From Saccoglossus kowalevskii (lineage: Eukaryota > Hemichordata > Enteropneusta > Harrimaniidae): a stretch of DNA of 42,234 nt. Shown here piece after piece: positions 7,713 through 42,234 of this stretch. The stretch lies in the NCBI RefSeq assembly GCF_000003605.2, contig NW_003105103.1, forward strand, positions 336,135 to 378,368, written 5' to 3'. Made by a program: the position numbers and the translations under genes. Within the stretch, counting starts at the first letter, position 1; every line of letters begins with the position of its first letter. Below the pieces are notes generated by a model. It was not told the origin of the DNA and searched no databases. It was given only the letters and a program-made list of their open reading frames with translations.

Positions 7713-8328
7713 GGTGGCCCATATATACAATCGGCGAAGAATGACCAAATTTCGGCGATCAATAACGCATTGCGACGATCAATAACCAATTACGACAATC
7801 AATAACGCATTGCAGCGATCAATAACCAAATTGCGGCGATCAATAACGCATTGCGTCGATCAATAACCACTTTGCGGCGATCAAAGACGCATTTCGACGA
7901 CCAATAACGCACTGCGGCGATCAATAACCAATTACAACGATCAATAATGCATTGCGGCGACCAATAACCAAATTGCGGCGATCAATAACGCATTGCGTCG
8001 ATCAATAACCGAATTGTGGCGATCAATAACGCATTGCGGCGATCAATAACGCATTGCGTCGATCAATAACTAAATTGCGGCGATCAATAACGCATTGCGA
8101 CAATCAATGACGCATTGCGACGATCAGTAACGCATTGCGGCGATCAATAAGGCATTATGACGATCAATAACCAATTTCAGCGATCAATAACGTATTACGA
8201 CGATCAATAACGCATTGCGACGACCAATTGATCGACCATTGATCGTCGTAATTGGTTATTGATCGTCACAATGCCTTATTGATCGCCGAAATTTGGTCAT
8301 TCTTCGCCGATTGTATATATTGGCCACC
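7713..8328. mobile_element. Palindromic MITE filled with a ~20-bp tandem repeat
   Basis: The first about 85 bases (from GGTGGCCCATATATACAATC) recur inverted at the right end (GGTGGCCAATATATACAATC on the minus strand). The termini are flanked by TA plus one mismatched base (7710-7712; 8329-8331). Between them lie about 23 direct copies of a 20-21-bp unit built on GCGATCAATAACGCATTG. Many alternate between a CGCATTG and a CCAAATTG version, giving a dimeric period of about 41 bp. About three inverted copies follow in the right arm. No protein is encoded. The TIRs plus TA flanks suggest a nonautonomous DNA transposon whose subterminal repeat expanded. It sits in the long intron between the two ligand-binding exons. 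Confidence 0.8.
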
Positions 8329-27210: not shown

Positions 27211-27529
27211 CTAAATTTTTCAAACAAATGAAACAGTACCAGTTGAATTGTGAACGTTGAAGCTTTCTGTACTATTTATTTTTAATTTGAAAGTAACAGA
27301 ATACACGTGGCATTCAATATGTATGTATAAATAAAATGATATTCAGTATGTTCTCTCTTTAGAACAGACATAGAATATTGAACTCGTCTCATGTGCTTTT
27401 TATAGTTATTACATTTAAAAAAAATTGTATATTGATTAACATTATGCTGTATTTAATTTACATAATATCCAAATATTCCAAGAGCACCACATAGTGAGTA
27501 AGTAGCTGTTATTTCTGGAATTTACGTAC

Positions 27530-28162
27530 CTGCTGGACATTTAGTACATAGCTTCTCAGCTTCTATTATTTCGTCAGGCGACAACGCACGATTATATACT
27601 TGCATACATGTTACCAAACCTTTATAATACCGGGAATCGAAAGTAACCGCTCCCATACGAGCTTCGTACTGAGTTTCAATTTCCACTGAACCAATATTAC
27701 CACTTTTCACTACAGCACCATTCAAATATAGTTTTTCCTCGCCACTGTAGTAGTCGTACGTTACGCCAAAAAAATTCCAGTCGTTCTGGACGAGTACATT
27801 GGCTTTTAGTTCTGCAGTAGATGAAAAGTCGTTGCGTCCTGTCAGGCGGACAAATCCCTCATTGGGACCGGTTTGCCACAAATGGCTCCCCCAGTTATTT
27901 CGCTTATAATGAAATAGTGGACCTGCTACACCGGTGGGGTAAACGTATACCAGCAATGTTGTTGAAAAGCGTGTATCGAATCTACCGTTGTTGGGAAATT
28001 CGATGTATGATCCGCTATTACCAGAGAAGCTGTACGCACTACAAATATCACCATGTTTTGTATTATCAACTGTAACACCAGTTGGAAGACCGTCATTTGA
28101 ATCGATTTGATCAATGGTGCCTTGCTCTGCATTCAAAGGCCAGAATGCAACCATAGATGGAT
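27530..28162 (-). CDS. LamG-like jellyroll domain (secreted LamG/VWD protein exon)
   Basis: A single 633-bp exon in phase 1-1, between TTTTTAAATAG and GCAG|GTACGT. It encodes one complete concanavalin/LamG-like fold of about 205 residues. Visible blocks are VAFWPLNAEQGTIDQ, SGNSGSYIEFPNNG, NDWNFFGVTYDYYSGEEKLY with LNGAVVK, and YKGLVTCMQVYNRALSPDEI, then a short CTKCPAG linker into the VWD domain. Such domains bind glycans or proteins in extracellular proteins. The phase 1-1 exon is a classic shuffling module. It needs one base from an upstream exon, but the signal-peptide exon ends in phase 0, so an exon between them is missing from this model. Confidence 0.93.
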
Positions 28163-32286: not shown

Positions 32287-33850
32287 ATTAAGTGCAACTG
32301 GTGACTTCAATGCTCGCACTAAGAGCGACCAACACTGTCATTTACAGTAGTCTTGATTAGCAGTGATCAGAACAAATACATCATTAAAGCAAAGAAACTC
32401 TCAAGATTTAACACAAAATAATTATGATAAGATTTTCTTAGATCTTTGTACAGAATCTGACCTGGATATTCTAAATGGCAGATGCATAGGGGACTATACT
32501 GGCAAATTCACATCACCAGACAAATTGGAGTAGCACAATTGGCTAGACTATTGTCAGCTACAATTTATTAAAAAAAATAAAACTATTCTATATACATCTT
32601 TTAAACATATCTTTCACAGACCATTGCCAAATTTGCTGTCAAATACATAATTATATTGAGCATCTGGTGAATGATGTAAAATAAAAAAAAAATTACACAT
32701 CCTAAGAGGGCTAGCTGATACATAGTAGATCTTCTTAGTATGTAGAAAGATATCATTAAACTATCATCGAAGCTTAGCTCAGATCTCTATAATCAAGAGA
32801 AAAGTGTGTTAACGATATAAACAATTAGTCAAGGAAAAAAGAAGGGCATTTAAAAACAGCATCCTCACAAAGCTTGACAATTTAAGCCAACCAAAACCAA
32901 GTGACCATGTGAATTTAATTAATGAGTTAAAGAATAACTCTCAAGAGAATCAGTGACAAAAATATGGTTTGATTACTTTAAAGTGTAAATGTAAGTTCAG
33001 ACAATCAAAAAGCAGATCAAAGCATTGAAGGTGAACTTGAGGTTATGAAAAACAATGAACAATATCTAATGGTTTTAGATCATCCAATATCACCCAATGT
33101 ACAAAAATAAATAAATGATTTGAAAAACGAAAAAAACACCTGGTGCTTGTAACAAACGAAATGATTGAATCACTTTTCAGACAGCTATAACCTATGTATT
33201 ATAACTCCTATTGTGAAGAAAGTGGATCCAGGTAACTATATGGGTAATTAAATTCCTTCAGAAAATTATTCACAGTAATTTTAAAATCAGGAATGACTAA
33301 ACATCGCAATGATGAAAAAGTATTAAAAAGGAACAAATGGGTTTCATGCCAAAGTTCAGGTCATCTGATTATATATTTTACTTTAAACAATTAGTCACAA
33401 AATATCTATCCAAGGGTAAATACATCTGTGTATGTTTCATTGGCTTCAAGAAAGCCTTTGATTCTATTTGGCGCCGTGATCTGCTTTATAAGCTAATATA
33501 AAATAATATTTCTGATTAATTTAATCGAATTAAATCAATGCACATAAACTCCTTAGGCTGTGCCAAGGTCAAACATGGCCTCACTGAACAGTTTAAGGTA
33601 CAGTTTAGAATAGGAATTCAACAAGGTGACAGACTAAGCTCCATAGACATAGACTCTATTAACAGCGATCCGCCAACACTTCTAAACAGCCAGTTACCAC
33701 GACTTTTATATGCTGACTTAGTCCTATTGTCAAATTCAGGTCTAAAAATGCATTGAATGCTTTAGAGAAATAATGTACAAAATGGCACCTGAAAATCAAT
33801 ACATTAAAATCAAAGACCATTGTTTTTAATATATAATTCTTTCTACACAT
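32287..33850 (+). pseudogene. Degenerate non-LTR retrotransposon (endonuclease + reverse transcriptase)
   Basis: Across many stops and frameshifts the plus strand shows, in order: an endonuclease piece (TGDFNARTKS; then FLDLCTESDLDILNGRCIGD; then FTDHC), a linker (KPSDHVNLINELKNNS), a motif resembling KKTPGACN...NEMIES, then reverse transcriptase blocks. These are KYICVCFIGFKKAFDSIWRR, FRIGIQQGDRLS and LPRLLYADLVLLSNSG. The catalytic YADD is YADL here. Order and motifs fit jockey/CR1-type LINEs with an apurinic-like endonuclease before the RT. The element is clearly dead. Confidence 0.85.
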
Positions 33851-38783: not shown

Positions 38784-39832
38784 ATTTAATTCTTTTAAAA
38801 GATTCTTCTCATTTGTAAATAGCGCCCTCAATCAACAATAATTAAAATGAGCACGTGGTTTGTCAAAAGTGTAATGAGTCAGGTGCATCTATTGGCTAAG
38901 CTTGTTCTATATAGATGCAACTGAGTATAGGAACCATTAATGCTCTAGGGTGTATTGGGAAGGGTGAAGGATTTCATGTTTGTAATGACTGGTTGTAATG
39001 TGCTATCTCGTTGTTTTTAAGGATGCAGCCTGATATTTGTTGCTTTCTTGGTTGTTCAATTATGGCTAAAATTTGTGTGGTGGGTGGAAGATGTGTTTAT
39101 TGTTCGTTGAGTCATTGTTTAGACACCCTGCAGCTTGAAATGTATGGTCCAAATCCAAATTCGACATGGCGTGTTGAATATCTGTGCGATATGGCGGTGT
39201 CGTCTAAAAACATGGCATCAAAATGATTTCTGTTTATTTATTTACTGTTGTAGATCCTGAGAACTAGCCACTGTGTATGATGTCGGGAATAAACGGTATT
39301 CTGAACAAGCATTATTAATTATTGCTGGCAATATTCCAGTATGAATTGGAGCAAACTATGACATCAAATCCAGTCATTGTATTGTTATGCTTCTGAAATA
39401 TATTTTTCAAATGTCTTGAAACAGATTCAAATATAAGGATATGGATTGTAAAATATTAAGATTATATAGTGTCCAACACATTAATTTGTAAGTGATAAAT
39501 TTATTTTAAAGAATTCAGTGACAATATTATAAAATAACATAAATTAAATTGAAATATTATGTGTGTTTTTGTATGTGGAAACTTGGCTGGCCGACTCAAA
39601 AATATAAAGAAGTGAGATCTGCAGATCTTTTTTTTTTTTTTATTTGTGAAAAAAATGGTATTTTACAGAGTGCAAATAATAAAACACTCACAGTGCAAGG
39701 CTAGTTCACCAACGTGTCTATTCTCTTCCTTGAGTGAGAAAGTACATGGCTTAGTGACTACCTCTTATGTTAGAATTTCTTTTATTTGGGAAGGTTCTTC
39801 TATAAACATAGAACAGATGTAATGAATTGATT
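38784..39832 (+). repeat. Dispersed repeat, copy B (longest)
   Basis: Its first about 600 bases recur at 40878-41473 and its last about 660 bases recur at the window start. It contains a short frame at 39023-39226 (MQPDICCFLGCSIMAKICVV, Cys-rich) preceded by a TTTTTAAG acceptor-like end. Comparison with the same frame in copy C over 40 codons shows four base differences, all changing the amino acid, so it is not behaving like a constrained protein. An AATAAA lies at about 39290. Confidence 0.88.
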
Positions 39833-40872
39833 TTAATATTTTATTTTAATTTTAGAACTAGAGCTGAATCACTACCTGAGAAAGCATATATCACACAATT
39901 ATTTCACTGAGCATAGGCTACAAGAACTATAGGTACAAGTTATAAGTCCTCCCACAATATGTTTCCAGGTGAGTGAACTGTATACCTTCATTAATTAAAG
40001 CGTCACTTGATATTTACTGCTTGTAATTTTATTAATTTTAATATTTTAATCTAATTTCAGAACTAAAGCTGACTCACTACATGAGAAATCATATTTTAAA
40101 GAATTTCAACTGTGGCTAGACTCACCCCCTATGGGTACAAGTTATAAGTCCTGTTCCAATGTTTTCAGATGAGGGAACTGTATATCTTCATTAATTAAAG
40201 CATCACTTGATATTCACTGCTTGTAGTATTAATGAATTAATTTTAATATTTTATTTTAATTTCAGAACTAGAGCTGAATCACTACCTGAGAAATCATATT
40301 TTAAAGGATTTCAACTGTGGCTAGACTGAACCCCCTATGGGTACAAGTTATAAGTCCAGTCCAATATGTTTTCAGATGAGTGAACTGTATACCTTCATTA
40401 ATTAAAGCATCACGTGGTATTCACTGCTTGTTATACATTGTAATAAATAAATTTTAATATTTTATTTTAATTTCAGAACAAGAGCTGAATCACTGCCCGA
40501 GAAATCATATATCGCACAAGTATTTCACTGCGCCTAGGCTACAAGAAATATAGGTACAAGTTATAAGTCCGCCCACAATATGTTTTTAGGTAAGTTAACT
40601 GTATACCTTCATTAATTAAAGCATCACTTGATATTCACTGCTTGTAATATTAGAATTGTAATGAATTAATTTTAATATTTCATTTTAATGTGAACACTAG
40701 ATCTGATTCAATGCCTGAGAAATCATATATCGCACAGGTATTCAACTGCGCCTAGACTACAAGTACCATTGGTACAAGTTATAAGTCCTGTCTCAGTATG
40801 TTTTCAGGTAAGTGAACTGTATACCTTCATTAATTAAAGCATCACTTGATGTTCACTGCTTGTAATATTAGA
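39833..40872 (+). repeat. Tandem array of five ~205-216-bp exon-like units
   Basis: Five consecutive units share a T-rich tract ending in TTTAG or TTTCAG, a 108-113-bp core, then a donor-like end and a tail with CTTCATTAATTAAAGC and CACTGCTTGTA words. Cores lie at 39856-39968, 40061-40168, 40266-40375, 40477-40589 and about 40695-40807. Units 1, 4 and 5 have real GTGAG or GTAAG donors. Units 2 and 3 have ATGAG instead. Unit 5 has lost the TTTCAG. The array lies exactly between repeat copies B and C. Confidence 0.9.
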
Positions 40873-40877
40873 TCTGT

Positions 40878-41473
40878 TTAATTTTTTCAAAAGATTCCTC
40901 TCATTAGTAAATAGCGTCTCACTCAACAATAATTAGAATGAGTGGTTGATCAAAAGGTTTGATGAGTCAGGTTCATCTATTGGCTAAGCTTGTTGTACAT
41001 AGATGCAAATGAGTATAGGAACCATTAATGCTGTTCGGTGTATTGGGAGGGATGGAGGATTTCATGTTTGTAATGACTGGTTGTATCGTGCTATCTAGTT
41101 GTTTTCAGAATGCAGCATGATATTTGTTGCTTTCTTGGTTGTTCAATTATGGCTAAAATTTGTGTGTTGGGTGGAAGATGTATTTATTGTTTGTTGAGTC
41201 ATTGTTTAGACACCCTGCAGCTTGAAATGGTATGGTCCAAATCAAAATCGATATGGCGGTGTCGTCTAAAAACATGGCATCAAAATGATTTCTGTTTATT
41301 TATTTACTGTTCTAGATCCTGAGAACTAGCCATTGAATATGATGTCGGGAATAAATGGTATTCTGAACAAGCTTTATTAATTATTGCTGGTAATAATCAA
41401 ATATAAATTGAGAGCAAACTCTGAAACCAAATCTAGTCGTTGTATTGTTATGCTTCTATAAAAATAGAACATC
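40878..41473 (+). repeat. Dispersed repeat, copy C (internally shortened)
   Basis: Matches 38784-39395 of copy B, then jumps to the CTTCTATAAAAATAGAACA part found near the end of copies A and B. Its Cys-rich frame starts at 41110 after a GTTGTTTTCAG acceptor-like end. It directly follows the tandem array and is followed by an (AT)n run at 41473-41491. Confidence 0.88.
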
Positions 41474-41601
41474 TATATATATATATATATAGGAAGGTAG
41501 TCGATTATTCCAGGTGAGAGTGCTCGATACTAAACGATGAGTTTGTAGAGCAGATTTACATACGTGGACAGAGAAATTAAGACACGACTACATGAGTAAA
41601 G

Positions 41602-41665
41602 TTCACTCTACAGTACTGTTTCGTAAGGTACTAGTACATGGATTACCTCACTCATCAGGAGTTAA
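41602..41665 (-). ncRNA. Hammerhead ribozyme, type I, of a Penelope-like element
   Basis: On the minus strand all conserved parts are present in order. These are stem I 5' strand (41665-41659), CTGATGA (41658-41652), stem II GTGAGGTA (41651-41644), a 13-nt loop, stem II TACCTTAC (41630-41623) and GAAA (41622-41619). A short stem III hairpin (about 3-4 bp, with the A of GAAA as its first base) follows, then the cleavage triplet GTA, with the cut predicted after 41609. The stem I 3' strand is 41608-41602. Stem II pairs over all 8 positions with one G-T(U) wobble, and stem I pairs 6 of 7. Self-cleaving type I hammerheads with short stem III are known in Penelope-like elements. It lies about 90 bases downstream of the element's ORF. 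Confidence 0.9.
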
Positions 41666-41751
41666 GACTTTATTAAATAAACCACCGAAACAGACTATGT
41701 TATAAGCGCTACAGATTTGCATAACAATGGAGTGTGTTTACGATATTAAAA

Positions 41752-42234
41752 CTAGTTGTTGCATAGCAACGATTTGGCTCTGTGTCTACAGGAAGAAAAA
41801 AGCTCATTTCTTTTATTTAAACTACAGTAATGTGGTTGGAAAATTATAATATATTTCTCTCTAATACATAAGTTGCAACGTTTGCTTGAAGTATTGTATG
41901 GTGCAGCACGCGATAACACACTCCATTTGATGTCGTAATCGATGTTATTGTCTTTTAATGACCAAGCGTATTTACTGAGCTCTGTTGCGTTTCTCAATGA
42001 TTGGTTGCGTAGCGATGCTGTGTGGTTTCTGTACCGGGTTTTAAATTCATTTCCTGTTAGTCCCACATATGTTTCACACTTGTTGTTGTCTTGCCGTCTG
42101 ATATTAGCTTGGTAAACCAAGGCCGATTGTAAACAATTTCCGTCTAAGGGGCATTCAGATTTCTTACGGCAGTTACATAATCTGTGATCTCGTACTGGGT
42201 GTATTGGTGTTGGCCGCTGTAGCTGTTGTTTGTT
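41752..42234 (-). CDS. Penelope-like retroelement, C-terminal GIY-YIG endonuclease (partial)
   Basis: Open from the window edge to a stop at 41752 (160 codons seen). It first shows the PLE linker with cysteines (CNCRKKSECPLDGNC). The GIY-YIG-type endonuclease follows: LVYQANIRR, then CETYVGLTGNEFKTRYRNHT with the catalytic-type Arg, then NATELSKYAWSLKD with the conserved Glu, then RCNLCIREKYIII and a C-terminal SLNKRNELFSSCRH stretch. No stops or frameshifts in the visible part, so the copy may be young. In the full element this domain nicks target DNA and follows a telomerase-like reverse transcriptase, which should lie beyond the right edge. A hammerhead ribozyme lies just downstream. Confidence 0.95.
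   Translation of the reverse strand, partial: NKQQLQRPTPIHPVRDHRLCNCRKKSECPLDGNCLQSALVYQANIRRQDNNKCETYVGLTGNEFKTRYRNHTASLRNQSLRNATELSKYAWSLKDNNIDYDIKWSVLSRAAPYNTSSKRCNLCIREKYIIIFQPHYCSLNKRNELFSSCRHRAKSLLCNN

Follow-up and report, generated by a model that had tools for sequence, protein, structure and literature searches.

What might a small self-cleaving RNA do for a retrotransposon, and which RNA, the cut or the uncut, serves as the template for new copies? The question arises at the right-hand end of the 42,234-bp stretch of DNA analysed here (the window), whose last base is also the last base of its contig, so that the contig offers no extension to the right. The DNA appears to be eukaryotic and probably of animal origin. 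A minus-strand open frame of 160 aa reaches in from that end to a stop at 41752, and a putative hammerhead ribozyme follows it on the same strand. Hammerheads in the pseudo-LTRs of Penelope-like elements (PLEs) have already been published, in sections of PMC6155905, PMC7229834 and PMC7761336; those of the last describe small PLE hammerheads that are reported to act as dimers (Lunse et al. 2017, via PMC7761336), and call hammerhead function in PLEs a mystery.

The features discussed are these:
41752..42234, minus: GIY-YIG-like C-terminus (160 aa) of the element's ORF, whose frame stays open as far as the contig end
41594..41672, minus: type I hammerhead with outer stem I (core 41602–41665; predicted cleavage 41609/41608)
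41631..41643, minus: loop II, 13 nt, including a 6-nt insertion private to the window copy among 40
41492..41689, minus: pseudo-LTR, long form; outer limit set by comparison with two other copies, L016 and L022, and inner limit at the (TA)n start
41559..41563, minus: end point of the short form, which the window copy continues past
41474..41491, strandless: (TA)n run bordering the 3' end of the element, interpreted as the microsatellite that was targeted

Positions within the element are also given as q, which is 42235 minus the window coordinate, the ORF stop being q481–483. The assembly holds just the last 160 aa of this copy's ORF; the reverse-transcriptase part lies beyond the contig end. 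Pfam and NCBIfam searches recognised neither element domain (GIY-YIG, reverse transcriptase), in the window or in relatives. The relatives carry a long upstream frame with YRDDGL, which we take to be a motif of Penelope-like elements; this frame has no Pfam match and its structure model is poor. Structure models in general were weak (pLDDT 53 and 40), the reverse-transcriptase model being too poor for searching.

The hammerhead motif

The core starts 94 nt beyond the ORF stop, with C3 at q577, A17 at q626 and the predicted cut at q627. Read along the minus strand, it comprises CUGAUGA (41658–41652); stem II, in which 41651–41644 pairs with 41630–41623 through 8 bp, one of them G.U, under a 13-nt loop; GAAA (41622–41619); a stem III of A15.1–U16.1 plus two pairs, with loop GUAC; and the triplet GUA, of which 41609 is A17. 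In stem I, ACUC pairs with GAGU (4 bp), beyond which come an A.G mismatch and two more pairs. The invariant order CUGANGA ... GAAA ... UH is thus present, and three stems surround the core, loops closing stems II and III and stem I remaining open, the arrangement of type I. The first-pass annotation had described just this—a type I core on this strand and at this place, a stem II fully paired but for one wobble, and a GTA triplet predicted to be cleaved after 41609—and was right on each count. Where it gave stem I as paired 6 of 7, the pairing stands but the extent does not, for stem I can be longer: an alternative outer helix of 6 bp (UAAAGU/ACUUUA) joins 41672–41667 to 41602–41597. Little weight attaches to this helix, because 1559 of 20,000 random flanks contain one of such length.

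Stem III was called minimal, and short it is; as a hairpin, though, it is so weak that cleavage as a dimer becomes the likelier course. The calculated energy is +1.3 kcal/mol for the hairpin versus –13.4 kcal/mol for the self-duplex of two copies, and in L001, a related element on another contig, the same contrast recurs (+1.3 versus –13.0 kcal/mol, with one mismatch). These modelled energies suggest that the hammerhead cleaves as a dimer. PLE hammerheads described in excerpted sources (Cervera and De la Pena 2014; Lunse et al. 2017; via PMC7229834, PMC7761336) are likewise type I, in pseudo-LTRs and short in stem III. Reviews describe them as minimal and usually without helix III, whereas the window's stem III has three layers and a palindromic loop. 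A stem III of two pairs and a tetraloop has been likened, in a passage of PMC7229834, to invertebrate motifs.

Could such a motif arise by chance? Scanned for the motif on both strands, the window yields a single match, this hammerhead; 300 surrogates of it, generated by a first-order Markov model, gave three matches in the same scan, none as tight. When the scan was scored, the real motif reached 15 and the best of 53 matches in 400 surrogate windows 14. Surrogates of the 293 nt after the stop contained such a motif in none of 20,000 cases, and the tests at L001 and at L003, a second related contig, gave one and two per 20,000, figures that flatter the motif because the limits were chosen after the motifs were known.

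Rfam reported no match in the window at the gathering threshold, and its hammerhead families reported none up to E 10 with queries of 401 and 91 bases. The annotation had staked its claim on this search beforehand, and on this point the outcome went against it. The search also missed the L001 hammerhead and the 73-nt form common to ten copies (represented by L016), and had no known-hammerhead control; we do not take its outcome as deciding the matter. Plain folding prefers another fold (MFE –15.8 versus –12.9 kcal/mol for the best written-out hammerhead form), and the folding z of the window hammerhead is –0.64, 51 of 200 shuffles folding equally well. Judged by its sequence, the hammerhead motif is real, and is of type I.

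Copies in the genome and the Penelope-like plan

A 79-nt ribozyme probe found at least 41 matches in the same 572-Mb genome, the window's own among them (40 of 52 candidates were scored), and all copy counts from this probe are lower bounds. Up to 3.5 kb per side was taken for each locus, and 40 copies hold at least 60 nt of the ribozyme. The ORF C-terminus lies upstream of the ribozyme in 20 of these 40, with a spacing from alignment end to ribozyme of 81–84 nt in 16 of the 20. In one further copy, L016, the N-terminus of the ORF lies downstream of the ribozyme instead, after a leader, and is interrupted by an in-frame stop and by a gap in the assembly. Because it follows the ORF in some copies and precedes it in another, the ribozyme is placed in a Penelope-like pseudo-LTR, on the ORF strand, as had been proposed from the window alone. 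The Penelope-like plan is present at the level of the family, spread over its copies: pseudo-LTRs on both sides, and copies in tandem (a junction in L001) or inverted (pairs in L003, L014 and L033).

Similar arrangements are known. Penelope elements of Adineta vaga (PMC3846280, in part) share the pseudo-LTRs of ~200 bp, the optional tail, the head-to-head inverted copies, and TATATATA within the pseudo-LTR; the word hammerhead is absent from the text of that paper as excerpted. PAc, a Poseidon element of Anolis carolinensis (PMC11167929), shares the pLTR–ORF–pLTR plan, the hammerhead and AT-rich targets. It is cut 26 bp inside the ORF, whereas in L016 the first in-frame ATG comes ~155 nt past the ribozyme.

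Short sequence matches recur near ORF starts. The letters TCGAGCACTCT are found shortly before the start in L001 (1409–1420) and in L016, and also within the pseudo-LTR (window 41516–41527). The 12-nt match TCGAGCACTCTC, which the window shares with the leader of L001, catches the eye, yet an equal score is reached by 64 of 1000 shuffles; most of its letters also precede the ORF start in L016, and we keep it as a lead.

Neighbouring sequences in the window

A 0.5-kb stretch occurs twice near the element, at 38865–39402 and 40953–41466, the two ~90% alike and 2.06–2.09 kb apart; their likeness stops beside the PLE, and DNA adjoining another copy, L056, resembles the same repeat by eye. The pair lies round five tandem units of ~210 bp (39818–40894), each with an exon-like stretch of ~115 bp (lengths by eye) that has a T-rich tract and CAG before it and CAGGTAAGT-like letters after it. 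Farther off are two successive arrays of 20-bp units (7749–8293), the first a tandem repeat of ~24 copies and the second a short one whose unit, a different one, resembles reversed related letters; a minus-strand frame of 210 aa with a Laminin_G_3 (concanavalin-like) domain (27522–28154, E 2.1e-16); and a faint trace of a LINE-type ORF (33322–33495; tblastn E 3.6e-4 against the LINE frame of L001).

Where the copies end

Of 39 copies, a count that leaves out L016, which continues into the ORF, and two partial matches of 28 nt, 21 end in a short class, 13 in a long class, four elsewhere and one at +3. Thus 34 of 39 end in two narrow classes, which on window coordinates lie about 46–50 or 117 nt past the cut, and most of these ends run into (TA)n microsatellites. 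Two of the four others are short ends lengthened by a TA run, and the copy ending at +3 (L050) lies in a rearranged locus. The window copy is of the long form, with its end at 41492; an end at 41457/8, taken from BLAST ends, was rejected as spurious, TA runs having been aligned to one another.

Beyond the ribozyme, TA runs that reach 10 nt first appear at +22 to +47 in 20 of 40 copies and at +100 to +105 in nine, versus 134 and 34 of 20,000 random positions in the same loci; in one copy the first such run is at +9, and ten copies have none within 220 nt. At the 5' junctions, 14 of the 29 that could be scored have a TA run of at least 8 nt nearby (in a 44-nt stretch), versus 425 of 20,000 random stretches. 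In PAc, too, the 3' ends are internal to the RNA and come in a short and a long form, and the 'tail' is the stretch between two start sites (PMC11167929); the AT-rich targets of that element differ from the (TA)n runs of the window family. A literature search turned up no earlier Penelope-like element with (TA)n as its target, but it was too limited to support a claim that this one is new. In L016 the element's own sequence goes on with TA after both end points, so pairing between (TA)n and RNA may choose the site at which reverse transcription starts.

The copies also amount to a natural experiment, for a template of cut RNA should leave copies with their ends at the cut. Such a copy would keep 64 of the 79 probe bases and should be detected, a match of 27 bases having been reported. 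Of 39 matches to a second probe, which lies upstream of the ribozyme, nine were absent from the first list. Six of the nine were examined: they end at q536, q576, q582 and q601, or, in two cases, at the short end with damaged ribozymes. The other three align just with DNA further upstream and were left out. None of the 45 copies (39 from the ribozyme probe and six from the upstream probe) ends exactly at the cut, and the RNA that is reverse transcribed is therefore likely to be normally uncut at the ribozyme. Their ends suggest that these copies were not made from RNA cut at its 3' ribozyme, barring religation.

We read the locus, with a probability of roughly 0.8, as the 3' end of a Penelope-like element inserted in (TA)n, with a hammerhead near the start of its pseudo-LTR that cleaves as a dimer, and with uncut RNA as the template. 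Transcripts running through two pseudo-LTRs would bring two ribozymes together by pairing of their palindromic stems III; the paired ribozymes would cut as a dimer and release RNA of unit length. Reverse transcription would ignore the cut end and begin about 46–50 or 117 nt past it, where a spot in uncut RNA that carries TA could base-pair with the nicked (TA)n target, and would then copy back through the intact ribozyme. The cut RNA might serve as messenger or be discarded, leaving the uncut RNA as template.

Might the ribozyme act mainly as a monomer instead, trimming the 5' end of the element RNA as the HDV-like ribozymes of R2 do, its 3' copy being a by-product? The ribozyme of L016 stands where this would have it, at the element's 5' end directly after (TA)n, and 5' starts cluster at q546–571 in nine of 38 rows. 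These starts lie just before or at the beginning of the ribozyme, however, rather than at the cut (q627), with the proviso that the probe is blind to later starts, those at q627 included; and a monomer would have to form the unfavourable stem III hairpin. We consider this unlikely.

Age and upkeep of the ribozyme

Does the family maintain its ribozymes? Ten of the 40 copies have identical ribozyme sequences, and 28 distinct sequences occur in all. By a strict motif test 31 have an intact core and stems, seven have a changed core and two a broken stem I. Most copies have a 9-bp stem II; it is 8 bp long in the window copy and 3–4 bp in L001 and L003. Two changes set the window copy apart from all the others of the 40: its loop II is longer by six bases, and at the head of its stem II an A replaces C. 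The nearest relative of this copy among those examined differs by 1.2% over 170 sites, and two copies are 97.5–98.7% identical to the window ORF over 78–81 aa. The element family looks young on these sequence comparisons. The annotation had called the window copy recently active: youth seems to hold for the family, with its identical ribozymes and near-identical ORFs, and does not carry over to the window copy itself, with its private insertion, its stem II change and just 160 aa of ORF.

The more distant relatives come from a pattern scan of genome contigs that gave four loci. L001 and L003 are independent contigs with ORFs related to the window's (47–50% identity); L002 and L004 were rejected as relatives, having no tblastn match better than E 1. 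The hammerheads of L001 and L003, 125–127 nt beyond the ORF stop, were identified by eye; one scan missed both, and the scored scan also fails to pick up that of L001. The L001 hammerhead, whose stem I has 6 bp and whose stem II has a U.U at its base, separates the end of one ORF from the N-terminus in the tandem copy that follows; the L003 contig terminates within its motif. Relatives were also sought in viral contigs, and in phages and plasmids, and none was found there. Both contigs (L001, 1–6731; L003, 1–3787) are filed under a bacterial symbiont or bacterial MAG, yet carry eukaryotic-type retrotransposons, a tandem PLE and a LINE in the frames of L001 and a head-to-head PLE pair in those of L003.

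That the ribozyme is a passive remnant with no role in the life cycle of the family seems to us distinctly improbable. Nine of 40 copies damaged is what one might see of a remnant, and the ribozyme's divergence of 3.8% is little below the 5.3% and 4.9% of its flanks, a difference given without a significance test and too small for us to claim selection on the ribozyme. Ten identical copies fit such neglect poorly, as do elements ~50% different in protein that keep hammerheads, complete or cut off, at the same place.

We give hardly any credence to a hammerhead derived from a separate, non-coding retrozyme inserted next to the ORF: ~7 copies are short ORF-less pieces running from just before the ribozyme to the short or long end, but the constant spacing in ORF-linked copies, the ribozyme before the ORF in L016 and that in the L001 tandem junction all speak against it, and metazoan retrozymes, which also have canonical type I hammerheads, are described in a section of PMC7229834 as short non-coding tandem repeats, whereas the window ribozyme flanks an ORF.

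What the ribozyme may be for

If the preferred reading is right—dimer cleavage, with reverse transcription of uncut RNA at (TA)n targets—the ribozyme might sort RNA: just the uncut molecules, perhaps protected by protein, would integrate, and two starts set by (TA)n would replace the cut as the 3' end. We offer this tentatively, and think it rather less probable than its opposite. In Anolis, PAc reverse transcription begins inside the RNA, mutants of the ribozyme leave insertion in vitro unaffected, and the ribozyme does not cleave without its protein (PMC11167929).

The absence of copies ending at the cut agrees with that in vitro result, obtained for another family in another genome. The (TA)n junctions, for their part, give a clear target for endonuclease tests.
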